Assembly (NCBI GenBank): GCA_019930625.1
Contig: CP082844.1
Coordinates: 5,022,001-5,086,000 of the forward strand
Length of the DNA: 64,000 nt
Reading direction: 5' to 3'
From: Nocardia asteroides
GTDB taxonomy: Bacteria > Actinomycetota > Actinomycetes > Mycobacteriales > Mycobacteriaceae
The position numbers and the translations under genes are program-made. Within the stretch, counting starts at the first letter, position 1, and every line of letters starts with the position of its first letter. The notes below the pieces were generated by a model. It did not search any database. It was not told where the DNA came from and was given only the letters and a program-made list of their open reading frames with translations. This document shows, piece after piece, positions 500 through 44,991 of this stretch.

Positions 500-1663
500 A
501 TGACCAACAAGGTGCTCGATCGGGTACGGGATCTGCTGCCCGCGATCCGAGAGCGAGCCGCCGAGACCGACCGGCAGCGCAGAGTGCCCGAGCAGAGCAT
601 TCGGCAGCTGACCGAGGCCGGGGTGTTCCGCATGCTGCAACCGTCCCGCTTCGGCGGCGACGAATCCTCACCCGTCGCGTTCTACGAAGTAGTCCGTGCC
701 ATCGCCACCGCATGCCCGTCCACCGCGTGGGTCTCGTCGGTGCTGGGCGCGCATCCGTGGCAACTGGCGCTGTTCCCCCTGCGGGCGCAGGAGGACGTGT
801 GGAGCGCCGATCCGGACACGCTTGTCTCGTCGTCGTACGCGCCGACCGGCAAGCTCACGCCCGTCGAGGGCGGATTCCGGATCAGCGGTCGCTGGAGCTT
901 CTCCTCCGGCTGCGATCACGCCCGCTGGGCATTCCTCGGCGCGGTCGTGCCGGACGGGGAAGGGGGAGCGGAGTACCTGACCGTTCTGGTGCCGCGCACC
1001 GACTACCGCATCGAGGACGTCTGGCACGTGTCGGGGTTGTCGGGCACCGGCAGCAACGACATCGTCATCGAGAGCGCGTTCGTCCCCGTCCACCGGACCT
1101 ACCGCGCCAGCGAGCAGGCGGCGCTGCGCGGACCCGGCCAGGAGGTCAATACCGCACCGCTGTACCGGATCTCGTTCGGCTCGGTGTTCTCCAACACCAT
1201 CACCGCACCCATCATCGGCGCCGCCCAGGGCGCTTACGAAGCGCACATCGAGCGTATGCGCGAGCGGGTGCGGATCTCCTACGGCGGGCAGAAAGCGGCC
1301 GAGGATCCGTTCGCCCACGTCCGGGTCGCTCGCGCCGCCTCCGAGATCGACGCGGCCGTCCTGCAGATGGAGCGCAATATCGGCGAACAGCTGCGCTATG
1401 CCGAGGCAGGTGAGGAGATTCCGTTCGAGTTGCGGGTACGCAGTCGCCGCGACCAGGTGCGCGGCACCGAACGTGCGCTCGAGGCGATCGACCTGCTGTT
1501 CGACAATTCCGGTGGTCACTCGATCCGCAAACCGAATCCGATGGAGCGGCACTGGCGCGACGCGCACGCCGGGAGCGTGCACGTCATCAACGACGTCGAG
1601 CGCGCGTTGGTGGTATACGGCCGCAACGCCTTCGGGCTGCCGGTGACGGACCGGATGATCTGA
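500..1663 (+). CDS. hsaA: HsaA-like flavin-dependent 3-HSA monooxygenase, oxygenase component
   Basis: 387 residues with an acyl-CoA-dehydrogenase-like fold. Characteristic segments include SSSYAPTGK, FSSGCDHARWAF, DVWHVSGLSGTGSN and, near the end, MERHWRDAHAGSVH, which match the oxygenase that hydroxylates 3-HSA at C4 in steroid degradation using reduced flavin. The ATG at 500 is chosen because GAGGAGGA lies about 9 bp upstream; an in-frame upstream ATG at 422 has no ribosome site. The flavin reductase partner is probably the hsaB-like gene at 7921. The stop codon overlaps the start of hsaD by one base, indicating translational coupling. Its exact steroid substrate could differ from that of the cholesterol enzyme. 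Confidence 0.9.
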   Translation: MTNKVLDRVRDLLPAIRERAAETDRQRRVPEQSIRQLTEAGVFRMLQPSRFGGDESSPVAFYEVVRAIATACPSTAWVSSVLGAHPWQLALFPLRAQEDVWSADPDTLVSSSYAPTGKLTPVEGGFRISGRWSFSSGCDHARWAFLGAVVPDGEGGAEYLTVLVPRTDYRIEDVWHVSGLSGTGSNDIVIESAFVPVHRTYRASEQAALRGPGQEVNTAPLYRISFGSVFSNTITAPIIGAAQGAYEAHIERMRERVRISYGGQKAAEDPFAHVRVARAASEIDAAVLQMERNIGEQLRYAEAGEEIPFELRVRSRRDQVRGTERALEAIDLLFDNSGGHSIRKPNPMERHWRDAHAGSVHVINDVERALVVYGRNAFGLPVTDRMI

Positions 1664-2517
1664 TGACGCTCACCGCCGAGAACACCACGCGCTGGAGCGT
1701 GACGGGTGGGCTGAGATCGCGCTACCACGAGGCGGGGTCGGGTGCGCCGCTTGTCCTGCTGCACGGCTCCGGGCCGGGGGTCTCGGGCTGGGCGAACTTC
1801 GGCGCGAATCTGCCGGTGCTGGCCGAGCGCTTCCGCTGCTTGATCGTGGATCAGCCGGGCTTCGGCGCCAGTGGTCGCCCGGAAGTGTACGAACGCAACT
1901 ATCTGCGCGTCTCCGCCGACGCGGTGCTCGGACTCCTCGACGACCTCCATTTGGAACGCGTACACCTGCTGGGCAATTCGATGGGCGGTGCGGTCGCCAC
2001 ATTGCTGGCGCTGGAACATCCCGACCGGGTCGAGCGGCTCGTGCTGATGGCGCCGGGAGGCGTCGGGGTGAATGTGCTCGGGCCGGAACCGTCCGACGGC
2101 ATCACGCGGTTGCTGGAGTTCATCGCCGACCCGACTCGGGAGCGCCTGCTGCCCTGGCTGCGCACGATGGTGTCGAACCCGGCGACCCTCACCCGGGAGC
2201 TGATCGACGCCCGGTCGGCCGCGGCCTCGGACCCGGCCGCCATCGCGGCGCTGCGTGATGCCTACGCGACCTTCGCCGATCCCGCTCTCGCCGAACCGGT
2301 CCCGCTGTGGGCGCGGCTGCGCGGCCTGCGCGCGGAAACCCAGATCCTGTGGGGTCGCGACGACCGGGTGACGCCGGTCGAGGCGTCGTTGCTGCCGTCA
2401 CGCCAGATCCCGAATGCCGACCTGCGCGTTTTCGCCAGCTGTGGGCACTGGGTGCAGATCGAGCGCAAATCGGCGTTCGAACATGCCGTCATCGATTTCC
2501 TCACCGCCGGTCTTTGA
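1663..2517 (+). CDS. hsaD: HsaD-like meta-cleavage product hydrolase
   Basis: 284-residue alpha/beta hydrolase of the C-C bond hydrolase family (BphD/HsaD), which splits the ring-cleaved steroid intermediate (4,9-DSHA) made by HsaC. The oxyanion segment LLHGSGPGVSGWANF, nucleophile elbow GNSMGGA (Ser106), acid in WGRDDRV (about Asp234) and GHWVQIE (His262) give a full catalytic triad. The length equals that of known HsaD enzymes. The start overlaps the hsaA stop. A homologue acting on a non-steroid aromatic is possible, but the surrounding kshA, kshB, hsaB and hsaC make a steroid role much more likely. Confidence 0.88.
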   Translation: MTLTAENTTRWSVTGGLRSRYHEAGSGAPLVLLHGSGPGVSGWANFGANLPVLAERFRCLIVDQPGFGASGRPEVYERNYLRVSADAVLGLLDDLHLERVHLLGNSMGGAVATLLALEHPDRVERLVLMAPGGVGVNVLGPEPSDGITRLLEFIADPTRERLLPWLRTMVSNPATLTRELIDARSAAASDPAAIAALRDAYATFADPALAEPVPLWARLRGLRAETQILWGRDDRVTPVEASLLPSRQIPNADLRVFASCGHWVQIERKSAFEHAVIDFLTAGL

Positions 2518-2540: not shown

Positions 2541-4823
2541 TCACACGCCGTGATCGCGAACCCACCCCGCGATCTGAGTGCGGGAGGTGAAGCCCAGCTT
2601 GGTGAGGATGTGCTCGACGTGGGTCTCGGCCGTGCGAACCGAAATCACCAGCTCGGCGGCGATGCGCTTGTTGCTGTGGCCGGCTGCCACCAGCCTGGCG
2701 ACGTCCTTCTCCCGGCGAGTGAGGACATCCGCCGCCTCGGACGCGGCCGAAGCGGGGCGCGGCGACGGCGCCGCGGCGGGCGCGCGGCCCAGCGCGTAGT
2801 CGATCGCCTCGCCCAGCGACAGCGCGGCGCCGCTGTCGAACACCTCCTGGAACACGCGCTCGCCCAGGGCTTCCCGGGTCCGGCCGCGCATCTTGTCGCC
2901 CAGTACGCCGGTGATGGCGTGTGCCAGCCGTACCGTGCTGCGCGCGAGGATCTCCGCGGCGCCCAGCAGGCGTGCGGCTCGTTCGAAATCGGCGCGCGCG
3001 ACGGCCGTCCAGGCCAGCCCCTCGAATGCGGAGGCCAGCCACACGCATCGGTCGAACTGGCTGAACATCTCGATGGACCGGGCGAGATGCCCGGTCGCGG
3101 CATCCTGATCGCCGCGCCGCCAGTGGTCCAAGCCCATCGACCACTGCGCCAGGCCGCCGAGCAGATGCGGTCCCCGTTCGGTGGCGACCTCGAGCAGCCG
3201 CTCGGCGAATACGGTGGAGCGCGCGTCGGCGAGCACCAGCGCGCACACGAAAGCGAAAGCGAGGCTGTCCATCTCGATCGCGTGATGGCCGCATTCCGCC
3301 GCGAGATGCGCTGCCGTCTCCGCCGATTCGAGGGCACGGGCGGTGTCGCCGTCGTTGAAGGTCAGCAGCGCCGAATCGAGCACGGCCTCGGCGAGGATGT
3401 CGGGGGCGTCGAGTTTCCGTGCCAGGGCGACGCATTCGTCCACCAACTGGTGAGCGGACCCGCGATCGGACAGCAGCGCCGCGAGCGAAGCCGCCGCGGA
3501 GAGCGCGCGTGCACGCGGCCGCGTCGGTTCGCCGGACTCGGCCAGCGCGTCGGTCAGCCAGCGATAGCCCTCGGTGAGGAAGCGGTTGTGTTCCCAGAAC
3601 GGCCGCAGCACCGCGGCCATCTCGAGCGCAGACTCCGGTGTGCCCGCGAGATCGAACTGCAGAGCCGCGCGTAGATTCGCGTGCTCGCGATTCAGTTCGC
3701 GGAACCAGGCCACATCGTCGGAACTCCAATACGCGGTCCGGCCGCGCAGCGCCAGCCGCCGGTAGTGGTCGCGGTGGCGTGACCGTACCGCGGGCTCCTC
3801 ACCCCGTTCGGCCAGCCGGTCGTGGGCGAACTGCCGGATCGGCTCCAGCATCGCGTATCGGCCGATGTCGCCGTCGTAGCGCAGGCTCAGCACCGATTTG
3901 TCGACCAAGCCCCGCAGCGCGTCGAAGAGCGTCCGCGGGCCGGGCTCCTCCACCACGCACACGGCTTCGGCGGCGTCGATGTCGAAGCCGCCGGAGAATA
4001 TCGACAGCTGTTCCCACAGTCGCTGCTCGGCCGGGGTGCACAGATCGTAGCTCCAGCGGATCGCGCCTTCGATGGTCTGCTGCCGTTCCGGCGCGAGACG
4101 CGGTCCCGCGCTGAGCAGGCCCATGGTGTCGTCGAGCCGGGCGAGAACTTGTTCGGGCGTGAACATGCGAAACCGCAACGCGGCCAATTCCAGCGCGAGC
4201 GGAACACCGTCGAGCCTGCGGCAGATCGCGGCCAGTGCGCCGCGGTTCGCGGGCGTGGCGGCGAAGCGCGGATCGGCGGCACCCGCTCGCTCGGCGAGCA
4301 GCCGCATCGCATCGCTGTCCGCGGTCTCGTCCTCCGGTAGCGGCAGGGGCGCGAGGGGCATGACCTGTTCCCCCTGCACGCCCAACACCTCCCGGCTGGT
4401 CGCCAGCACCCGCACGTCGGCGGTGGTGGCCACGAGCCTGCCTGCCAGTTCCGCGCAGGCCTCGATCAGGTGCTCGCAGTTGTCCAGGATCAACAGCAAT
4501 CGTTTGTCGGCGAGGAACCCGGTCAGCCGCGGCAGCGGCGCCGCCGTGTCGTCCCGCAGCGCCAGCGCCTCCGCGACCGTCACCGTCACCAGATCGGGGT
4601 CGTGCACGTCGGCCAGTTCGACCAGCCAGACCCCGTCGGGGAACGCGCGCGCGACCGCGGCGCCGACTTGGCGGGACAGCCGTGTCTTGCCGACGCCCCC
4701 CGGCCCGAGCAGCGTCAGCAGCCGTGTCGTGGGCAGCAGTCTCTTCGCGGCGGCGAGTTCTTCCCGGCGCCCGACGAAACTGGTGACCTCGGCAGGGAGA
4801 TTGCCGATCGGACGCCGCGCCAT
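2541..4823 (-). CDS. LuxR-family transcriptional regulator with AAA/NB-ARC-type ATPase domain
   Basis: About 760 residues. The N-terminus has the segment TSFVGRREEL, a Walker A loop GPGGVGKT (residues ~40-47) and a Walker B-like LLILDNCEHL. A long helical TPR-like middle follows, and the last ~60 residues form a LuxR-type helix-turn-helix (LTRREKDVARLVAAGHSNK). This is the actinobacterial ATPase-LuxR architecture, in which nucleotide binding gates DNA binding. The ATG at 4823 starts next to the conserved N-terminus; an in-frame ATG at 4880 adds 19 residues and also lacks a clear ribosome site. A TTGACA-containing GGGTTGACACCC lies directly before 4823. It is convergent with hsaD, with a 23 bp gap, so it may control the steroid genes; the target is unknown. 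Confidence 0.85.
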   Translation of the reverse strand: MARRPIGNLPAEVTSFVGRREELAAAKRLLPTTRLLTLLGPGGVGKTRLSRQVGAAVARAFPDGVWLVELADVHDPDLVTVTVAEALALRDDTAAPLPRLTGFLADKRLLLILDNCEHLIEACAELAGRLVATTADVRVLATSREVLGVQGEQVMPLAPLPLPEDETADSDAMRLLAERAGAADPRFAATPANRGALAAICRRLDGVPLALELAALRFRMFTPEQVLARLDDTMGLLSAGPRLAPERQQTIEGAIRWSYDLCTPAEQRLWEQLSIFSGGFDIDAAEAVCVVEEPGPRTLFDALRGLVDKSVLSLRYDGDIGRYAMLEPIRQFAHDRLAERGEEPAVRSRHRDHYRRLALRGRTAYWSSDDVAWFRELNREHANLRAALQFDLAGTPESALEMAAVLRPFWEHNRFLTEGYRWLTDALAESGEPTRPRARALSAAASLAALLSDRGSAHQLVDECVALARKLDAPDILAEAVLDSALLTFNDGDTARALESAETAAHLAAECGHHAIEMDSLAFAFVCALVLADARSTVFAERLLEVATERGPHLLGGLAQWSMGLDHWRRGDQDAATGHLARSIEMFSQFDRCVWLASAFEGLAWTAVARADFERAARLLGAAEILARSTVRLAHAITGVLGDKMRGRTREALGERVFQEVFDSGAALSLGEAIDYALGRAPAAAPSPRPASAASEAADVLTRREKDVARLVAAGHSNKRIAAELVISVRTAETHVEHILTKLGFTSRTQIAGWVRDHGV

Positions 4824-4962
4824 GGGTGTCAACCCTAGGTATCCCGTCTCGCGTGCACGAGCGTTCTGGGCAAATTCCACTGTGCCGGGCGTGCTCGGCG
4901 CTCGCGCCGATGTGCGGAGACGGGCAGAGCCGCCGGCGTGGGAGGGACCGGATCGCCGCCGT

Positions 4963-6192
4963 TCACCGGACGGCGACAGCGGCGTCGACCTCGGTCAACT
5001 GATGGCGCATACGGTCACGTTTGGCGCGAAGATAACGCACATTGTGCTCGGTCGCCCTGATCTGCAGTGGAATGCGCCGTTCGACGACGATGCCGTACGT
5101 GGTCAAGTCGGCCTGTTTGGCGGGATTGTTGCTGAGCAATCGGACCGACCGCACGCCCAGGTCGGCCAGCATCCGCGCCGCGGCGCCGTAGCGGCGGGCG
5201 TCGACGGGCAGCCCGAGCCGCAGGTTCGCCTCGACCGTGTCGGCGCCCTCGTCCTGCAGCTCGTAGGCGCGCAGCTTGTTCAGCAGTCCGACGCCGCGTC
5301 CCTCCTGTCCGCGCAGGTACACCACGACGCCGCGGCCCTCCTCGGCGACGGCTCGCAGCGCGTCGTCCAACTGCTCACCGCAGTCGCAGCGCAGCGATCC
5401 GAACGCGTCACCGGTGAGACATTCGGAGTGCACGCGCGTGAGCACGTCGTGTTCGCCGGGCTCGCCGAACACCAGCGCGAGATGTTCGGCGCCGTCGGCT
5501 GTGTCCCGGTAACCGATCACCCGGAACTCGCCGAAACGGGTGGGCAGCCGGGTTTCGACGACCCGGACAACGCCCGACTCGAGCCGGTGGCGGCAGGCGA
5601 TCAGGTCGGCGATCGAGATGATCGGGATTCCGTGCACCCGGGCCATGGTCGACAGTTCGGGAAGCCGCGCCATCGACCCGTCGTCGCCTACCACCTCCGC
5701 GATGACGGCGGCGGGGCGCAGACCCGCCATTCGTACCAGGTCGACGGCGGCCTCGGTATGCCCCTGTCGGCCCAGCACGCCGAGCGGGTGGGCCCGCAAC
5801 GGGAACACGTGCCCGGGGCGGGTGAGATCCCGGGGTGTGGTGGCGGGATCGGCGAGCAGGCGCATCGTGTGCGCGCGGTCGGCGGCCGAAACGCCGGTGC
5901 CGACACCCGCCGCGGCGTCCACCGAGACCGTGTACGCGGTGCCCTTCGGGTCCTGGTTGACCGCCGTCATCGGCGGCAGTTCGAGCCGGTCCAGGTCGTC
6001 TCCTGTCATGGGCACGCACAACACGCCGCTGGTGTGCCGTACCAGGAACCCGATGTTCGCCGCGGTCGCCTTCTCCGCGGCGAGCACCAAATCCCCTTCG
6101 TTCTCGCGGTCCTCGTCGTCCACGACGAGCGCCATGCCTCCGCTCGCGATCGCCGCTACCGCGGCAGGCACCGAGTCCAGTTCACCGGTCAT
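4963..6192 (-). CDS. ribBA: Bifunctional 3,4-dihydroxy-2-butanone-4-phosphate synthase / GTP cyclohydrolase II
   Basis: 409 residues. The N-terminal DHBP synthase half carries [11 protein letters not shown] (about residues 25-35) and RPGHVFPL. The C-terminal GTP cyclohydrolase II half carries [19 protein letters not shown] with the three zinc cysteines, and [11 protein letters not shown]. It makes both precursors of riboflavin, hence FMN and FAD. The ATG at 6192 has a strong GGAGGTGG seven bases upstream. It lies directly downstream of padR (61 bp gap), with a copy of the shared 18-bp site abutting its ribosome site. The usual housekeeping rib operon genes are not adjacent, so this is probably an extra copy devoted to flavin supply for HsaAB and related enzymes (inference). 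Confidence 0.95.
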
Positions 6193-6205
6193 CGTCCGCC
6201 ACCTC

Positions 6206-6226
6206 CATATGCCTGATCGAAATATG
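6206..6226. promoter_or_regulatory. Putative PadR-type operator, site 1 (before ribBA)
   Basis: Contains ATATGCCTGATCGAAATA (6207-6224), identical over 18 bp to the site before hsaB. ATAT half-sites flank a GATC centre, giving partial dyad symmetry. It touches the ribBA Shine-Dalgarno, so a bound protein would block initiation or early elongation. Confidence 0.65.
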
Positions 6227-6253
6227 CCGGGGCGACAACAACCAGTCGGCGTC

Positions 6254-6829
6254 TCACTCAGTGAGGCGATCGATGTCCGCGAGCAGCTCCTCGGCGAAAT
6301 CGCGCTCGGCCTCGTAGTGCCGCACGCACCAGCGCAGCACCAGTTGCGGGTAGACCCAGTCCGGGTTCGCCTCCGCGCCGTGGGCGTCGGCCTCGGCGCG
6401 CTGCCGCATCTTCTCGGCGTAGGCCGCATGCTCGGTCAGGATCTCGCGCATGCGGTGGGGCTCGGCGAGGTTGCCCAGCCACGCCCGCAGCATCACGCTG
6501 TGCTTGAGCACCGGCGCCTCGACGGGCGCGTGATTGACCCAGTTCGTCGCGGCCTTACGGCCTTCCGACGTGATGGAGTACATCCGCTTGCCGCGCACAC
6601 TGTCCTCCTGCACGACCGTGCGGGAGGTGGCGTAGCCGTGTTTCTCCAGGCGTTTGAGCTCGGCGTAGATCTGGCTGAACGACGGGCTCCAGTAGAAGAA
6701 CTGCAGGCTCCAGTCGGCCCACTTCTTCAGGTCGTAGCCGGAGAGTTCGTCGGCGTGCGAGAGCATTCCGAGCACGGCCCACGCGGTGGTCGGCAGGTCG
6801 GGCACCGCGGGTGTGACGCCATCGGTCAT
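6254..6829 (-). CDS. PadR-family transcriptional regulator
   Basis: 191 residues. The N-terminal winged helix ([20 protein letters not shown]) is typical of PadR, with the wing at [12 protein letters not shown] and [17 protein letters not shown]-terminal helical dimerisation domain (Vir_act_alpha_C type) follows. ATG 6829 is preferred; the upstream ATG at 6853 would lie inside the operator-like site at 6851-6870. PadR proteins usually repress phenolic-acid or stress genes and release DNA on ligand binding. Because similar sites lie before this gene, ribBA, hsaB and kshA, autoregulation plus control of the steroid genes is the simplest reading. It may be cotranscribed with iclR upstream and ribBA downstream. 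Confidence 0.9.
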
Positions 6830-6850
6830 CGTCGGAATGTACCGCCCAGG

Positions 6851-6870
6851 CATATCCGGATTCGAACTAT
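6851..6870. promoter_or_regulatory. Putative PadR-type operator, site 2 (before padR)
   Basis: CATATCCGGATTCGAACTAT matches site 1 at 14 of 20 positions, keeping the outer CATAT/TAT and the CGAA core. It lies 22 bp upstream of the padR start and overlaps the last codons of iclR. Confidence 0.5.
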
Positions 6871-7697
6871 CGCCAGCGCGCCCGGCGCGGGAACAGCGTC
6901 CGGCCGGCCTCGTGGGAGATTTCGAGCAGGACCCGCGCCAGTTTGTCGAAACTCATCGCCTCGGCCCGCCCGGACAGCGACAGCGCCGCGGGGGCGGTGC
7001 CTCGACCGCGCAACGGCGCTGCGACGCAGGCGATTCCGTCCATGGATTCCTCGCGGTCCAGCGCGATGCCTCGGCGCGACCGGATCTGGGCCAGGGTGCG
7101 ATGCAGGGTGTCCGGCTCGGTGATGGTCTTGGGCGTCAACCGCGGCAGCCGGGAGTGGAACGCGGCTTCGGCGATACTCGGCTCCAGGGCCGCCAGCATC
7201 GCCTTTCCGAGCGCGGTGCAGTGCGCGGGCATGCGGCCGCCGAGGCGGGTCGGCAGCATCGCGGCCAAGCGGCCACCGGCCTTGTCCAGGTACACGACCT
7301 CGCGTCCATCGAGTACCGCGAGATGTCCGACCATGCCGGTGCGCTGACACAACTCGTGCAGCAGTGGACTGACGGCGTCGCGGATCTCGTTGTGGTCGGC
7401 GGTGAGCCCGCCCAGTTCCAAGGTGCGCATGCCGAGCCGGTACCCGCCGGAGGTGTGGGCCAGCCAGCGCAGCCGGATCATCTGGTCGAGGATCCGATGC
7501 ACTGTCGAACGCGGCAGGCCGGTGCGTTCCACCAGGCCGAGCAGTGTCAGCGAAGGGGTGGCGGCGTCGAACGCGTCGAGGATCAGGGTCATCCGTTCGA
7601 TCATCGACACGGGCACCTCGGCGGAGCCTGCTTCGGTCGCCTTGGGGCGAGCGCGGTGGGCGCGCGGCTGCCCTTCGGGTAGCAGCGTGACGGTCAT
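6867..7697 (-). CDS. IclR-family transcriptional regulator
   Basis: 276 residues. The N-terminal winged HTH (ATPSLTLLGLVERTGLPRSTVHRILDQMIRL) is followed by the C-terminal IclR effector domain (LHELCQRTGMVGHLAVLDGREVVYL, PAHCTALGKAMLA, GIALDREESMDGIACVAAPL). The ATG at 7697 has GGAGG at good spacing. IclR regulators commonly control aromatic and steroid catabolic genes in response to a pathway intermediate. It is divergent from hsaB across a 223 bp intergenic region, the expected position for a direct regulator of the hsaB-kshA-kshB-hsaC run. Whether it activates or represses cannot be seen. Confidence 0.92.
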   Translation of the reverse strand: MTVTLLPEGQPRAHRARPKATEAGSAEVPVSMIERMTLILDAFDAATPSLTLLGLVERTGLPRSTVHRILDQMIRLRWLAHTSGGYRLGMRTLELGGLTADHNEIRDAVSPLLHELCQRTGMVGHLAVLDGREVVYLDKAGGRLAAMLPTRLGGRMPAHCTALGKAMLAALEPSIAEAAFHSRLPRLTPKTITEPDTLHRTLAQIRSRRGIALDREESMDGIACVAAPLRGRGTAPAALSLSGRAEAMSFDKLARVLLEISHEAGRTLFPRRARWR

Positions 7698-7892
7698 CGG
7701 AACCTCCGTCGGTCACATTCGTCTGCGTGGACCGAGCAACAGCTGCTCGATCGCTTGTGTCTCCCATCACACTGACGGGTGCGCGACCGGGCCGAATCGG
7801 GAGAACTACGTAGCTTCTACGGGTCTGGATCTCGGTGACCGGACTCCGATCTTGACGCTCCTCGGGCGGCGCCTGCTGTCATAGCTGTCAGG

Positions 7893-7912
7893 TATATGCC
7901 TGATCGAAATAG
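7893..7912. promoter_or_regulatory. Putative PadR-type operator, site 3 (before hsaB)
   Basis: Contains the same 18-mer ATATGCCTGATCGAAATA (7894-7911) as site 1 and runs directly into the AGGAGG of hsaB. TATATG at its left end could serve as a -10 element. Confidence 0.65.
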
Positions 7913-7920
7913 GAGGCCAG

Positions 7921-8427
7921 ATGGAACCGCTGCTGGAGACGGACGGATCCCCGCTGGACGTGCGCGACTTCAAAACCGTGCTGGGGCGTTTCTGCACAGG
8001 CGTCACCGTGATCACCGCGCGAGCGCAGGACGGGCCGGTCGGATTCACCTGCCAGTCGTTCTCGGCGCTCTCGCTGGAGCCGCCCGCCGTCTGCTTCTGC
8101 CCGGCGCGCACGTCCACGTCCTGGCCGCGCCTGCGCCAGGTGGGCCGGTTCTGCGTCAACATCCTCGCCCACGACCAGCAGGAGATCTGCGGGCAACTGG
8201 CGCGCAGCGGCACCGACAAGTTCGCGGGAGTCGACTGGGAGCACTCGCCGAACGGCTCGCCGCGGCTGGCCGGGACGATGGCGTGGGTCGATTGCGAACT
8301 CGAGCGGGAAGTCGACGGGGGGGACCACACCATCGTGATCGCGCGCGTCACCGCACTGTCGGAGCATCGCGAGGCCCCGCCGCTGCTGTTCTACCGCTCC
8401 GCGTTCGGTCGGCTCGATGTGGCCTGA
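7921..8427 (+). CDS. hsaB: HsaB-like flavin reductase
   Basis: 168-residue flavin reductase-like domain protein of the FMN-binding split-barrel fold. GRFCTGVTVITA, GFTCQSFSALSLEPPAVCFCPA and GRFCVNILAHDQQEICGQLA are typical of the small NADH:flavin oxidoreductase subunits of two-component monooxygenases such as HsaB. It would give reduced FMN or FAD to HsaA. The ATG at 7921 has AGGAGG five bases upstream. It starts the plus-strand run hsaB-kshA-orf74-kshB-hsaC, but is separated from hsaA by ~6.3 kb of opposite-strand genes, an unusual split of the two components. Confidence 0.88.
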   Translation: MEPLLETDGSPLDVRDFKTVLGRFCTGVTVITARAQDGPVGFTCQSFSALSLEPPAVCFCPARTSTSWPRLRQVGRFCVNILAHDQQEICGQLARSGTDKFAGVDWEHSPNGSPRLAGTMAWVDCELEREVDGGDHTIVIARVTALSEHREAPPLLFYRSAFGRLDVA

Positions 8428-8465
8428 ACGCCTCCCGGCCAGTGGGACTCCACATTTCCGCACTC

Positions 8466-8484
8466 GCATGCCGAACCGAAATAT
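8466..8484. promoter_or_regulatory. Putative PadR-type operator, site 4 (before kshA)
   Basis: GCATGCCGAACCGAAATAT matches site 1 at 14 of 19 positions, with the CGAAATAT half fully kept. It lies ~37 bp upstream of kshA. Confidence 0.5.
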
Positions 8485-8520
8485 CGAGGTGACAAACGTG
8501 CGCGAATTGTGGAGGAACCG

Positions 8521-9663
8521 ATGACTACCGACACCGAGGTGCGAGTGATCGACGCGGGCGCTCCGCCCGCCCGTTACGCGCGCGGCTGGCACTGCCTGGG
8601 GCTCGCGGCGGACTTCCGGGACGGGAAACCGCACACCGTCGAGATCTTCGGCACCGAACTGGTGGTATTCGCGGGTACGGGCGGAGAGCTCGTCATCCTG
8701 GACGCCTACTGCAGGCACATGGGCGGGAATCTGGGTGACGGCCGCATCGAGGGCGACTCGATCGCCTGCCCGTTCCACGACTGGCGATGGGGTGGCGACG
8801 GCCGCTGCACCGGCATCCCCTACGGCCGCCGGGTCCCGCCCCGGGCGCGGACTCGCGCGTGGCCGACGCTGGAGCAGAACAAGCAGCTGTTCGTGTGGAA
8901 CGACCCGGAGGGTAATCCGCCGCCGGAGCAGGTCACCATCCCGCGCATCGAAGGCGCGTTCAGCGACGAGTGGACCGACTGGACCTGGAACACCACGGCG
9001 ATCGACGGGGCCAACTGCCGCGAGGTCATCGACAACGTGGTGGACATGGCCCACTTCTTCTACGTGCACTTCGGATTCCCCACCTACTTCAAGAACGTTT
9101 TCGAAGGTCACATCGCCAGTCAATACATGACCTCGGTGTCGCGCGAGGACATGATGGGGGAGACCGCGAAGGCGTTGGGCGGCAAAAATGTCCTGTACTC
9201 GGACGCCTCATACCACGGCCCTTCCTACATGATCGACCACCTGCGCAGCGAGAGCGCGGGCCTGACGGTCGAGGGCATCCTCATCAACTGCCACTATCCG
9301 GTGTCACCCACGAGATTCGTGCTGCAGTACGGCGCGATCGTGAAGAAGCCCCACGGTGTGCCCGTGGAGCAGGCCGAGGAGATCGCGGCGAAGTTCGCCG
9401 GGGGTCTCGGCCGGGGCTTCGAACAGGATGCCGCGATCTGGAAGCGCAAGACCCGCATCGACAATCCGCTGCTGTGCGAGGAAGACGGGCCCGTCTACCA
9501 GCTGCGCCGCTGGTACGAGCAGTTCTACACCGACGTGGACGAGATCGACCCGAAGATGACCGACCGCTTCGAGTTCGAAGTCGACACCACCCGGGCGGTC
9601 ACGGCGTGGGAGGCGGAAGTCGCCGGGAACCTCGCCGCGCAGCGCGCCACCGCCGGAGCCTGA
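8521..9663 (+). CDS. kshA: 3-ketosteroid 9-alpha-hydroxylase oxygenase component
   Basis: 380-residue Rieske non-haem iron oxygenase. The Rieske cluster ligands are Cys64/His66 in AYCRHMGG and Cys83/His86 in ACPFHDWRWGGDGRC. The mononuclear iron site includes DNVVDMAHFFYVHFG (His178, His183), and PTYFKNVFEGHIASQY is diagnostic of KshA. It hydroxylates 3-ketosteroids at C9, which with delta-1 dehydrogenation opens ring B. The ATG at 8521 is used, with GGAGG five bases upstream; an in-frame GTG at 8509 would overlap that ribosome site. Its reductase is probably KshB at 9946. Actinobacteria often carry several KshA paralogues with different steroid preference; which one this is cannot be told. 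Confidence 0.95.
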   Translation: MTTDTEVRVIDAGAPPARYARGWHCLGLAADFRDGKPHTVEIFGTELVVFAGTGGELVILDAYCRHMGGNLGDGRIEGDSIACPFHDWRWGGDGRCTGIPYGRRVPPRARTRAWPTLEQNKQLFVWNDPEGNPPPEQVTIPRIEGAFSDEWTDWTWNTTAIDGANCREVIDNVVDMAHFFYVHFGFPTYFKNVFEGHIASQYMTSVSREDMMGETAKALGGKNVLYSDASYHGPSYMIDHLRSESAGLTVEGILINCHYPVSPTRFVLQYGAIVKKPHGVPVEQAEEIAAKFAGGLGRGFEQDAAIWKRKTRIDNPLLCEEDGPVYQLRRWYEQFYTDVDEIDPKMTDRFEFEVDTTRAVTAWEAEVAGNLAAQRATAGA

Positions 9664-9673
9664 GCGGACCGCT

Positions 9674-9898
9674 ATGGAAGAGATCACCTGCCGCAGCTGC
9701 GGGACGTGCGTGCGAGTCGAGAAGTTCAGCCCGCAGCACACCAGCGTGCAGTGGAGCGCGGTCGCGGTGGCGGAGTGCGCCGAGTTCGCCGCAACAAGCA
9801 CGCGGGTGCGGACCTGCGTCGCCCTGCGCGACAGCATTGATGCGGCCGTGACAGGCGGTCTCATCGACGTCACCACCCGTGACCGGGACGTGCCGTGA
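9674..9898 (+). CDS. Small cysteine-rich protein between kshA and kshB
   Basis: 74 residues with a CxxCxxC cluster (Cys6, Cys9, Cys12) at the N-terminus and two more cysteines at 35 and 48. It could bind a metal or an iron-sulfur cluster, but it does not match a ferredoxin pattern that I recognise. The ATG is 11 bp after kshA, and its stop overlaps the upstream candidate GTG of kshB (9895). Tight packing between the oxygenase and reductase genes suggests an accessory role in Ksh assembly or electron transfer; this is inference. The protein family is not recognised. Confidence 0.6.
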   Translation: MEEITCRSCGTCVRVEKFSPQHTSVQWSAVAVAECAEFAATSTRVRTCVALRDSIDAAVTGGLIDVTTRDRDVP

Positions 9899-9945
9899 GC
9901 GCGGAGCGCGCGGCAGCCGTGGACGATCGCAGAGGAGACACGACA

Positions 9946-11055
9946 GTGATTCGGGCCGACGCGGCCACGCGGCCGCCGACGCGAGCCGATATCCCCGACG
10001 ACGCCGAGAACCCCGGCGGAATCCTCACCCTGCGGGTGACGCGGGTGATCCAGGAAACCCACGATGCGGTATCGCTGGAGTTGAGTCCCGCCACAGCGCG
10101 GTCGAAGCCGATCGACTATCGCCCGGGCCAATTCCTGACCCTGCGGATACCCAGCGAGCTGACCGGCTCGGTGAGCCGGTGTTACTCGCTGTCGAGTGCG
10201 CCGCACGAGGACGGTCCGTTGAAGATCACGGTCAAACGGACGCCGGAAGGCTACGGGTCGAACTGGTTGTGCGACAACGCCATCGAGGGCATGGATGTCG
10301 ACGCGCTGCCGCCCGCGGGTGTCTTCACCCCCGCGTCGCTCGACGTTGACATGCTGTTGTTCGCGGCGGGCAGCGGAATCACCCCCGTGCTGTCGATCCT
10401 GAAATCGGCACTGGCGGTCGGGTCCGGTCACTGCACGCTGATCTATGCCAATCGTGACGAACACTCGGTGATCTTCGCCGCCGAGCTCGCCGACCTCGCC
10501 GCCCGGCATCCCGGCCGCCTGCTCGTGGTGCACTGGCTGGAGACGGTGCAAGGGCTGCCCACCGGCGCGCAACTCGCCGCGCTGGCGGGGCCGTGGTCGC
10601 ACCGCGAGGCATTCGTCTGCGGTCCCGGCCCCTTCATGGACGCCGTCTCCGCCGCGCTGATCGGGCTGGGCGCCGATCGCCGACGTGTGCACGTGGAGCG
10701 ATTCGCGTCGCTGAACGGCGATCCGTTCCGAGCCGATACCGCCGCCCCCGCCGCCCCCGCCGCCCCCGCCGACTCCGTCGACTGCGCCGTGGTCGAAGTC
10801 GAACTCGACGGCCGGACACGCCGGATGCCGTGGCCGCGCCACCAGGTCCTGCTCGACGTCCTGCTGGCGGGCGGCCTGGCGGCCCCCTACTCCTGCCGCG
10901 AGGGCGCATGCAGCGCCTGCACCTGCCGGCTCGTCGCGGGCCAGGTGCGTATGCGGCGCAACGAAGTTCTCGACGACGCCGATCTGGCCGAGGGTTACGT
11001 GCTGGCATGCCAGGCGGTCCCGGTCACCGACACGGTGCACGTCACCTATTCCTGA
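9946..11055 (+). CDS. kshB: 3-ketosteroid 9-alpha-hydroxylase reductase component
   Basis: 369 residues when started at GTG 9946, which has AGAGGAG eight bases upstream. The alternative GTG at 9895 overlaps the previous stop. Domains in order are an FAD-binding barrel with RCYSLSS (~78-84), an NAD-binding domain with AAGSGITPVLS (~140-150) and CGPGPFMDAV, and a C-terminal plant-type 2Fe-2S ferredoxin with Cys317, Cys322, Cys325 and Cys355. This is the KshB/ring-hydroxylase reductase order. An Ala-Pro linker (residues ~266-275), encoded by a repeated GCCGCCCCC unit at 10741-10769, joins the ferredoxin. It passes electrons from NADH to KshA. Confidence 0.92.
   Translation: MIRADAATRPPTRADIPDDAENPGGILTLRVTRVIQETHDAVSLELSPATARSKPIDYRPGQFLTLRIPSELTGSVSRCYSLSSAPHEDGPLKITVKRTPEGYGSNWLCDNAIEGMDVDALPPAGVFTPASLDVDMLLFAAGSGITPVLSILKSALAVGSGHCTLIYANRDEHSVIFAAELADLAARHPGRLLVVHWLETVQGLPTGAQLAALAGPWSHREAFVCGPGPFMDAVSAALIGLGADRRRVHVERFASLNGDPFRADTAAPAAPAAPADSVDCAVVEVELDGRTRRMPWPRHQVLLDVLLAGGLAAPYSCREGACSACTCRLVAGQVRMRRNEVLDDADLAEGYVLACQAVPVTDTVHVTYS
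10741..10769 (+). repeat. Short tandem repeat in the kshB linker
   Basis: Three copies of the 9-mer GCCGCCCCC, plus a partial copy, encode an Ala-Ala-Pro linker between the NAD and 2Fe-2S domains. Such repeats can change length by slippage without shifting the frame. Confidence 0.7.
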
Positions 11056-11070
11056 GGAGTACGACGAACA

Positions 11071-11958
11071 ATGGCTGACATCGCCTCGCTCGGCTACGTC
11101 CGAGTCGCCATTACCGATGTGGCGGCTTGGCGCGCCTTCGCCTTCGACGTGATGGGCTTCGCCGAGGCCACCGGACCGAATCCCGACAGCGTGTACTTGC
11201 GCATGGACGAGCACGCTTATCGCTTCGAACTCGTTCCGGCGGATCAGGACCGGGTGCTGGCTGTCGGCTGGGAGGTGCGCGACTATCGCGCGCTGGCCCG
11301 GGTGCGGGACACAGTGGAGCGAGCGGGCGTCACTGTCGCACCGCTCGACCGAGAGAAGATCGACGCACTGCGCGTGGAGGAAGCGTTCACTTTCACCGAT
11401 CCCGCGGGGTTCACCATCGAGGTCTTCCACGGCCCGGTGCTCGACCACAGCCCGGTCGTCACCGTGCACGGCAATCGCTTCGTCACCGAAGGGCTGGGAC
11501 TCGGTCACGTAGTGCTGCCGGTGCCCGATCTCGCGGAGGCGAACCGCTTCTACTGCGAGGTGCTCGGATTCCTGCCGCGTGGCTCGTTCCGAGTGCCGAC
11601 CCCACCCGGCGTAGGGCCGATTCGCGTTCGATTCCTGGGTGTGAATCGGCGTCACCACAGCCTCGCGCTGATCCCGGGCACTCGTCCCGACGGTCCGGGG
11701 CTGGTGCACATCATGGTCGAGGTCGACGAGCTCGACGCCGTCGGCCGGGCTCTCGACCGCGTCATGGGCGCGGGCTACCCGTTGTCGTCGACTCTCGGCA
11801 GGCACACCAACGACAAGATGATCTCCTTCTACGTCCGCACTCCCGGCGGCTGGGATCTCGAATACGGCACCGAGGGTGCCCTGGTCGACGAATCCGTCTA
11901 CAGCGCCGAGGAGATCACCGCCGACAGTTACTGGGGCCACGAATGGTCTCGTGGCTGA
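11071..11958 (+). CDS. hsaC: HsaC-like iron-dependent extradiol dioxygenase
   Basis: 295-residue type I extradiol dioxygenase with two vicinal-oxygen-chelate domains. The iron facial triad is visible as His146 (LGHVVLP), His213 (LVHIMVEVD) and Glu264 (GWDLEYG). NRRHHSLALIP and TLGRHTNDKMISFY are active-site segments shared with HsaC and BphC. It cleaves the catechol ring of 3,4-DHSA, the product of HsaAB, giving the HsaD substrate. It starts 15 bp after kshB with GAGGAG upstream, so it belongs to the same operon. Length and order fit HsaC better than biphenyl enzymes, given the KshA neighbour. Confidence 0.92.
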   Translation: MADIASLGYVRVAITDVAAWRAFAFDVMGFAEATGPNPDSVYLRMDEHAYRFELVPADQDRVLAVGWEVRDYRALARVRDTVERAGVTVAPLDREKIDALRVEEAFTFTDPAGFTIEVFHGPVLDHSPVVTVHGNRFVTEGLGLGHVVLPVPDLAEANRFYCEVLGFLPRGSFRVPTPPGVGPIRVRFLGVNRRHHSLALIPGTRPDGPGLVHIMVEVDELDAVGRALDRVMGAGYPLSSTLGRHTNDKMISFYVRTPGGWDLEYGTEGALVDESVYSAEEITADSYWGHEWSRG

Positions 11959-12018
11959 CCCGGCCGTCCGGATCGCCCCGATCGTCCTAGACTGTCGATT
12001 CGAGAAGGAAGGACGCTG

Positions 12019-34225: not shown

Positions 34226-35116
34226 TCAGTCCGGCATATGCAGTTCGTGAGTGAACGGTTTGGTGCCGTGGACCGCGGGCTCGCCGTCGGGGTTGGTCTC
34301 GGCGCCGTGATTCACCCGGTCGTCGGTGTCGAGCCATTCGGTGACCGGATTGTCGATATAGCGCCATTCCGTGCCCGCAGGCCACGGTCCCTGCCCTTCG
34401 TTCCAGGGACCACGGGCGCTCGCCGCGCCGTTGGACATGTTGAACGCGACGTTCTGGAACCGGTCGTCGCCGGGCAGCGCTCCGGGTGGGAAATTGATCG
34501 GCAATTCGTTCAGCGCCGCGGTGAACTGCTGGAAGTGCGCGATTTCGCGGGTCATCAAGAACGAAAGCGTGTCCTGCACGCCGGGATCGTCGGTGAACTG
34601 CTTGAGGTACTCGTAGACGATCTTGGCGCGGGACTCTGCGGCGAGATTGCTGCGCAGGTCGACCGACGGCTCACCGTTGGAGTCGACGAACGAGCCCGAC
34701 CACGGCACGCCCGCCGCGTCTTTCACCGCGGGTCCGCCGCCGCTCAACACGAAGTACAGCGGATTCACCGCGACCTGGTGGATGACCTGGTCCCGTCCGC
34801 CGGACGTCGACACGACCGGCATCCAGTCGCACCGCTCGTTGGCTTGTTTCAGATCGTCGTTGAGCCCGTCGAGCAACATCGTGATCATGGCGCCGACGAT
34901 CTCGAGGTGACTGAATTCCTCGGTGGCGATGTCCATGAACAGGTCGTAGGTTTTCGGATGCTTCTTACGCAACAGAAACGCCTGGCTGAAATATTGCATG
35001 GCGGCTTTCAATTCACCGTTGGCGCCACCGAACTGTTCTTGCAACAGGGTCGCGAAGCGGGGGTCGGGACGGTCCACGCGAACCTCGAACTGGAGATCCT
35101 TGTTGTGGGTGAACAT
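34226..35116 (-). CDS. Manganese-containing catalase
   Basis: 296 residues. The ferritin-like core has the di-manganese ligand segments GELKAAMQYFSQAFLLR, IATEEFSHLEIVGAMITML and FLMTREIAHFQQFTAALN. The C-terminal tail is acidic and glycine-rich, as in the family. It dismutates H2O2 without haem. Good ribosome site GGAGAG before ATG 35116. Its neighbours, hemerythrin-like protein and photolyase, fit an oxidative and light stress locus. Confidence 0.95.
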   Translation of the reverse strand: MFTHNKDLQFEVRVDRPDPRFATLLQEQFGGANGELKAAMQYFSQAFLLRKKHPKTYDLFMDIATEEFSHLEIVGAMITMLLDGLNDDLKQANERCDWMPVVSTSGGRDQVIHQVAVNPLYFVLSGGGPAVKDAAGVPWSGSFVDSNGEPSVDLRSNLAAESRAKIVYEYLKQFTDDPGVQDTLSFLMTREIAHFQQFTAALNELPINFPPGALPGDDRFQNVAFNMSNGAASARGPWNEGQGPWPAGTEWRYIDNPVTEWLDTDDRVNHGAETNPDGEPAVHGTKPFTHELHMPD

Positions 35117-44127: not shown

Positions 44128-44991
44128 ATGGTTGAGCGCCGATCCGCGGAATTCACGGTGGGCGCCGTGGCGGCCAGGCTCGGGGTTCCGGTCGCGACGC
44201 TGCGCAGTTGGAACCGGCGTTACGGGATCGGCCCGCCGACATGGCAGCCCGGCGTCCATCGCCGCTACTCGGAATCCGAGATCGCGACGGTGCGGCGCAT
44301 GATCGAACTCGTTCGAACGGGCGTCACCCCCGCCTCGGCCGCACGACGAGCACTGGCCGAAGCCGATCCGGCAACGGAGGATCGCAGCGCCCTACTCGCG
44401 GCCGCCGAAGAGTTCGAACCCGATGTCGCCCTCAGCGTGCTCATCACCTGTCTCGCGCGTGACGGCGTCGTCGCGACGTGGAACCGGCTGTGCCGTCCGG
44501 CGTTCGAGGCGATCGTCACCGGGCAAAGCGCCGGGCGGGGCCTGATCGAAGTGGAACATCTGCTGTCGTGGGCGACGATCGCGGGACTGCACCGCATGTT
44601 CCCGCCGGTCCGGCGCCCACGCTCCCAACCACCGATCGTCCTGGCGTGCCCCGCGGGGGAGGACCACGTGCTGCCGCTCGAAGTGCTGCGAGCCGCGCTG
44701 GCGGAGCGGGGCATCGTCGCGTTGCTGCTGGGCGCGGCGGTGCCCGATCCCGCTCTGCGGGCCGCCTTGTCGCACCACGACCGGTCGTGCGTGCTCGTGC
44801 TGTGGTCCCAGATGCCTGCGACCGCCACGCCGGAAACGATCCGTGCCGGGCAGCGGGCCAGCGCGCGGGTACTGGTTGCCGGACCCGGCTGGTCCGCGAT
44901 CGCGTTGCCACCCGAGGTGGCGCACGTCAGCTCGCTCGAGGAGGCCATCGAAGCGGTGCGGGATCTCGGCGAGCGACATGACCTCACGTGA
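44128..44991 (+). CDS. MerR-family regulator with B12-binding-like domain (CarH/LitR-like)
   Basis: 287 residues from ATG 44128 (a longer in-frame GTG at 43972 has no family support). N-terminal MerR winged helix (FTVGAVAARLGVPVATLRSW, RRYSESEIATVRRM), a helical cap domain with EVEHLLSW (Glu143-His144), then a Rossmann-like cobalamin-binding part with GEDHVLPLE (His180 as possible Co ligand) and IVALLLGAAVPD. This is the CarH/LitR layout, light-sensing regulators of carotenoid genes. The Trp expected ten residues before Glu143 is Gln133, so light or B12 response is uncertain. Next to the crt operon, its likely target. Confidence 0.85.
   Translation: MVERRSAEFTVGAVAARLGVPVATLRSWNRRYGIGPPTWQPGVHRRYSESEIATVRRMIELVRTGVTPASAARRALAEADPATEDRSALLAAAEEFEPDVALSVLITCLARDGVVATWNRLCRPAFEAIVTGQSAGRGLIEVEHLLSWATIAGLHRMFPPVRRPRSQPPIVLACPAGEDHVLPLEVLRAALAERGIVALLLGAAVPDPALRAALSHHDRSCVLVLWSQMPATATPETIRAGQRASARVLVAGPGWSAIALPPEVAHVSSLEEAIEAVRDLGERHDLT

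Follow-up and report, generated by a model that had tools for sequence, protein, structure and literature searches.

Introduction

KstR and KstR2, which control steroid-degradation genes, belong to the TetR family, and TesR is another steroid-degradation regulator; the steroid regulators known to us are all of TetR or LuxR types. In the lux-rib operons of luminous bacteria, riboflavin genes are controlled together with a flavin-using monooxygenase. Here we describe a short repeated dyad in a 64,000-nucleotide stretch of Nocardia asteroides DNA (the window, positions 5,022,001-5,086,000 of a 7.36-Mb contig, with Nocardia as its closest named relatives). The dyad precedes a spare copy of the flavin-synthesis gene ribBA and genes of steroid catabolism, beside a gene for a PadR-family regulator.

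Among PadR-family proteins, the signature tyrosines of Bacillus PadR contact DNA according to passages of PMC6457526, where the LmrR-riboflavin structure 4ZZD is also cited. Passages of PMC6855506 describe AphA of Vibrio as binding ATGCAA-N4-TTGCAT, also as adjacent pairs, and as repressing some promoters. In Nocardioides, a steroid induces a PadR gene whose operon has a different predicted motif, as given in part of PMC7807495. Comparison of the Nocardia locus with its relatives suggests, with a probability that we put at about 0.76, that the repeated sites are operators of a PadR repressor that couples the spare ribBA to flavin-dependent steroid catabolism. We recognised no paper describing such a PadR flavin-steroid regulon in the open-licence PMC literature.

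Results

The same 18-mer stands, letter for letter, before ribBA and before the gene of an hsaB-type flavin reductase (Table 1), as the initial annotation of the window had stated, with 0 matches in 100 shuffles. The window holds no third place with up to three mismatches. The genome-wide motif scan proposed in that annotation found the motif to be rare, with only three places at up to three mismatches and none for the reversed-pattern control. The third place, at 5,008,055, lies 14 kb left of the window (L004:6055-6072) and is flanked by a luciferase-like monooxygenase gene (L004:4844-5971, minus strand) and a divergent SDR-kstD-SDR-SDR row, with a FadD3-type ligase nearby. The spaced pattern ATGCCNNANCGAAATA has four exact genomic matches, all within 22.5 kb, namely at ribBA, hsaB and kshA and at the place left of the window. 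At one mismatch it finds two further places elsewhere in the genome (control 0); genomic one-mismatch places were recorded at 557603, 2701421 and 6903843.

The sites share a 15-bp consensus dyad, roughly ATNNCTR-N-YNGNNAT, which in this genome reads ATGCCTG-A-TCGAAAT. For 322 matrix hits taken with their flanks, the dyad match was strongest at the centre (4.65 of 7; 2.95 or less at any other offset). Dyad symmetry also had side peaks at plus and minus 15 bp, which indicate adjacent dyads. Perfect or near-perfect dyads occur in some relatives, and across their loci the core is kept while the flanks vary, the sites having been picked by their core. A second dyad, ATAGCTGTCAGGTAT, adjoins the one at hsaB, and side-by-side dyads are also seen at ribBA and iclR of other loci (L074, L183).

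To score relatives, we used a matrix built from 19 unique ribBA sites, with a threshold of at least 15 bits within 250 bp upstream; random 250-bp windows pass this threshold in 2.7% of 2025 cases, true sites included. The comparison set comprised 80 named IclR loci plus fetched regions, and some genomes supply several loci. In the training set the site precedes ribBA in 47 of 48 loci, and it is kept in L037, L039, L041 and L047, where ribBA is distant from padR. Upstream of hsaB, which played no part in training, the site occurs in 49 of 56 PadR-bearing loci vs none of four PadR-less ones. Of the seven loci without it, two (L069 and L139) belong to a single genome, in which a separate scan does detect a site, and the other five are distant clusters. 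Counting the 80 named loci and the window alone, the site is present at hsaB in 45 of 46 cases and at ribBA in 42 of 43. In the 35 of 148 genomes counted as PadR-less (1e-40), 15 of them by elimination, there are 21 pattern matches vs 14 for the control among the matches listed, both summed by hand.

The luciferase-like monooxygenase extends this pattern beyond the padR locus. With the ribBA-trained matrix the site was found at all 39 of its loci, which represent 32 genomes (31 of the 57 bearing the gene, plus G014, the best 30 loci having been taken for those 57 genomes). These loci lie apart from padR and hence are tallied as PadR-less by locus; by genome, the monooxygenase is present in 57 of 148 Nocardia genomes (1e-150), and PadR is present in all 57 (1e-40). 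A 40th, weak match (identity at least 40%) in a PadR locus fell below threshold. Control genes in PadR loci carry no site (hsaC 0/54, kshB 0/30, hsaA 0/28, hsaD 0/24; together 0/136). At SDR2 the upstream region scores in 19 of 41 loci, which we interpret as arising because the query also matches the SDR that adjoins the operator.

These counts revise the gene set that the initial annotation had placed under the site. It had proposed a regulon joining riboflavin synthesis to flavin- and Rieske-dependent steroid oxidation. The comparative evidence supports the flavin side of this proposal, the candidate set joining flavin synthesis, a flavin reductase, kstD and the monooxygenase, the last two lying outside the window and so extending the set. 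The Rieske side is weaker than claimed: the kshA match (14 of 19 letters at 8466-8484) does lie in non-coding DNA, but a site precedes kshA in only 11 of 55 PadR loci, these being the window, eight near relatives, L183 and L185. A fourth site, claimed at padR itself, falls away. Its letters match at 14 of 20, but it scores 10.2 bits, less than an unrelated place at 34976 (12.8), and only 3 of 64 padR upstream regions hold a site at threshold. By eye, the conserved reading at this place (ATGCCT...) varies at codon third positions (MP[E/K/G]RY), and coding conservation is its likely source.

An exact match was also noted in another genome (G264, L189:8029), where it directly precedes a gene with a weak (29%) flavin-monooxygenase match, with padR on a different contig.

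Two explanations that dispense with a DNA-binding protein can be weighed on these data. If the repeats were leader, ribosome-site or RNA elements (e.g. an FMN riboswitch) kept for translation, their contact with the ribosome sites of ribBA and hsaB would be expected. This is very improbable given that the sites show dyad symmetry, face opposite ways relative to ribBA and hsaB, as the dyad nature of a DNA site permits, and have their far edge 32-173 bases before the monooxygenase start. A search of window positions 4000-12000 against Rfam (E<=1) matched no family, the FMN riboswitch included. Nor is it credible that a recent local duplication simply copied a functionless 18-mer: the two copies are letter-identical and only 1.7 kb apart, but flanks differ between genes (the cores being alike through the choice of sites), and the site recurs at the same genes across Nocardia under a matrix untrained on those sites.

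The choice of binding protein is less simple. The initial annotation named PadR as the natural binder and left out the adjacent IclR-family regulator, whose gene is divergent from hsaB. We at first favoured IclR, since in four genomes (L012, L013, L017 and L019) an exact site directly precedes the gene of an IclR homologue (local match, 44-49% identity). The site is also found within 250 bp of iclR in 57 of 63 PadR-bearing loci, although divergent pairs there include the hsaB site; the six misses are distant loci in which other scans show a nearby site, and are probably due to an extrapolated gene start. An IclR operator should, however, accompany close IclR orthologues wherever they occur, and only 2 of 33 PadR-less loci have it within 250 bp. 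Within 320 bp of iclR, the 80 named loci divide in the same way, with the site in all 47 that have PadR in the locus and in two of the 33 that do not; a Fisher test on this division takes no account of relatedness. The four genomes with exact sites at iclR all have PadR too, 55-64% identical.

Gains and losses of the two regulators point the same way. Seven genomes have IclR, 71-86% identical, and no site at threshold, and a whole-genome search (E<=1e-15) found PadR in none of them. In L066, hsaB and iclR are present, PadR is missing and there is no site at threshold; in L067 and L068, PadR and the site are present and HsaB is absent. The converse loss is seen in G250 (L182:9421-10301), where iclR is mostly gone, with residues ~201-270 remaining, while padR and ribBA are kept, yet two operators persist, at ribBA and at the remnant of the iclR promoter. 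On a tree of IclR, the presence of the site matches that of PadR in 79 of 81 rows; PadR changes at least six times, four of them forced by well-supported branches, and over four independent pairs differing in PadR the site changes in the same direction in 3.9 on average. IclR was dropped as the binder on the PadR-less loci and G250, and a role for it with PadR as bystander now appears unlikely. PadR, by the comparative evidence, is the best candidate.

IclR loci also bear a different dyad, TGTG-N8-CACA, which occurs in 44 of the 47 loci with PadR and in 14 of the 33 lacking it, against a background of 0.8% per 200 bp. Judged from its distribution, this dyad is probably IclR's own operator, and a better candidate for IclR than the 18-mer. 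Both proteins might nevertheless act, sharing or competing for neighbouring dyads, a possibility that overlaps with control by PadR and to which we give a minor but real share. It draws on the two adjoining dyads at hsaB, of which the first kind (ATGACTGTCAGCTAT) is retained in PadR-less L066 and the second is missing there. Against it, adjacent dyads also stand at ribBA and iclR elsewhere, and AphA alone binds such pairs in the passages of PMC6855506.

A further element, ACGTAGTTC-N4-GATTC, lies between iclR and hsaB (window 7794-7811, minus strand) and is found in 41 of 47 PadR loci and 6 of 33 others; the LuxR-type ATPase regulator is perhaps its binder. Control by KstR was also considered, and rejected: its pattern, TNNAACNNGTTNNA, occurs in the window at 44303 only and is absent from L004.

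Several observations weigh against assigning the sites to PadR. The association depends on only four to six independent changes (sign test p 0.125), and with four pairs a p of 0.05 is out of reach. PadR and the target genes are mostly retained or lost jointly, so part of the association reflects shared gene content. Sites occur in Streptomyces iclR loci that lack PadR in the locus (L097:9790, 23.0 bits; L100:9873, 15.7), the former also accounting for one of eight hsaA genes in PadR-less loci. L103 scores 27.7 bits by the first matrix and below 15 by the ribBA matrix, its genome having a PadR of 48% identity, and in PadR-less L075 the iclR position retains a degenerate place of 13.6 bits. Of the four PadR-less hsaB loci, three come from Streptomyces, with hsaB only 44-49% alike. 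Searching 201 family genomes with one pattern gave 16 places in 12 genomes (reversed control 2); of 12 exact matches in other family genomes, five have a convincing regulon homologue within roughly 2-3 kb and seven do not. The distant clusters L134-L137 and L140 have no site in the padR-hsaB gap and a strong one at iclR. At two mismatches this genome has 31 places vs 10 for the control, most at no known target, and a sigma-70 consensus scan found no promoter. Finally, the matrix seed was chosen with the 18-mer in mind, so that gene sets were held out from training and the motif idea was not.

The protein itself fits the family. PadR is 194-199 residues long and matches the PadR domain PF03551 at 39.5 bits (cut-off 27) and, by a narrow margin, the Vir_act_alpha_C domain PF10400 at 23.4 bits (cut-off 22.4). 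Both signature tyrosines, Y20 and Y42 of Bacillus PadR, are aligned with 5x11 by phmmer, where the alignment would imply a numbering offset of six residues.

The surrounding genes (Table 1) form a steroid ring-degradation set. The window and L004 together hold the KstD-KSH-Hsa genes (kstD, kshA/B, hsaA-D and fadD3), with the KstD and FadD3 profile models above cut-off in L004; that steroids are the substrate would follow from the gene families. ribBA is spare in that the genome has two other full-length copies, 63% and 57% alike to it. kshA is single-copy (search at 1e-30). The 3' part of a FAD_binding_2 gene lies at the window edge (3-404), upstream of hsaA. A terminator scan gave a single candidate, close to the mean for shuffled sequence.

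Table 1. Genes and candidate regulatory sites around the padR locus (positions in the window).
Feature	Position	Strand	Remarks
hsaA	422-1663	+	above its NCBIfam cut-off
hsaD	1663-2517	+	strong NCBIfam match, under cut-off
LuxR-type ATPase regulator	2541-4880	-	
ribBA, spare copy	4963-6192	-	NF006803, 626.9 bits (cut-off 569)
Candidate operator before ribBA	6207-6224		exact 18-mer; 15-bp dyad 6209-6223; touches ribBA ribosome site
padR, PadR-family regulator, proposed repressor	6254-6853	-	PF03551 and PF10400; PDB matches 5x11, 1yg2
Claimed padR site, not supported	6851-6870		spans the padR ATG and the 13 bp separating iclR from padR
iclR, IclR-family regulator, rival binder	6867-7697	-	between padR and hsaB; PF01614 and PF09339
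TGTG-N8-CACA dyad upstream of iclR	7756-7771		candidate operator of IclR
Second dyad at hsaB, adjoining the first	7881-7895		weak matrix score, 13.1
Candidate operator before hsaB	7894-7911		exact 18-mer; 15-bp dyad 7896-7910; touches hsaB ribosome site
hsaB-type flavin reductase	7921-8427	+	NF045630, 220.6 bits (cut-off 230); PF01613
Weaker operator-like site before kshA	8466-8483		19.5 bits; 15.5 bits with the ribBA-only matrix
kshA, Rieske oxygenase	8521-9663	+	PF19298 KshA_C
kshB-like ferredoxin reductase	9895-11055	+	
hsaC-like extradiol dioxygenase	11071-11958	+	NF045631, 343 bits (cut-off 450)

Discussion

The arrangement of sites suggests how such a regulon could work. A PadR dimer would bind the 15-bp dyad, at times two dyads side by side, and would sit after the promoter and ahead of the start codon at ribBA, at hsaB and at the divergent monooxygenase and SDR-kstD-SDR-SDR row; the positions of the sites relative to the ribBA, hsaB and monooxygenase genes fit a repressor. 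The hsaB promoter would also serve the kshA, kshB-like and hsaC genes downstream. We infer that a ligand releases PadR from its sites, a steroid-derived compound being our first guess and flavin less likely. Release would allow the production of steroid ring-degrading enzymes and, through the spare ribBA, of the flavin that they use, so that the cell may produce extra flavin cofactor during steroid degradation. By analogy with LmrR and riboflavin, PadR might instead sense flavin directly and meter it against catabolic demand, which we consider doubtful.

If this proposal is correct, it would be a case of bacteria matching cofactor supply to a flavin-hungry pathway, and a PadR regulon with its own flavin-synthesis gene would depart from the TetR and LuxR types of steroid regulator. 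The proposal can be tested directly, as it supplies a defined operator together with a candidate repressor, and as each regulator has been lost naturally in some relatives.

Among described systems, AphA resembles the candidate in its sequence kinship to PadR (1yg2 match, E 1e-10) and, going by the passages of PMC6855506, in an ATGC-type inverted-repeat operator that can occur as adjacent pairs. The AphA operator given there is 16 bp long whereas the Nocardia dyad is 15 bp with other inner bases, and the two have only ATGC-type ends in common, which sets the dyad apart from AphA-type operators. AphA also belongs to a quorum-sensing network, whereas the candidate PadR would control a local catabolic set. 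Bacillus PadR, LmrR and LftR share with it the winged-helix fold and an alignment over the signature tyrosines; in the passages of PMC6457526 they govern detoxification and efflux genes, in contrast to cofactor synthesis and steroid catabolism in Nocardia. A parallel in gene content is Rhodococcus ruber Chol-4, whose pathway map legend includes kstD, kshA, hsaC, iclR, padR, hsaA, hsaD and hsaB, with no operator, regulon or ribBA in those passages of PMC6498646.

KstR, KstR2 and TesR have in common with the proposed system the control of steroid-degradation genes, and differ from it in protein family and operator. The lux-rib genes form a single operon, whereas in Nocardia separate promoters would come under one operator, and the pathway served by the flavin would be that of steroid degradation.

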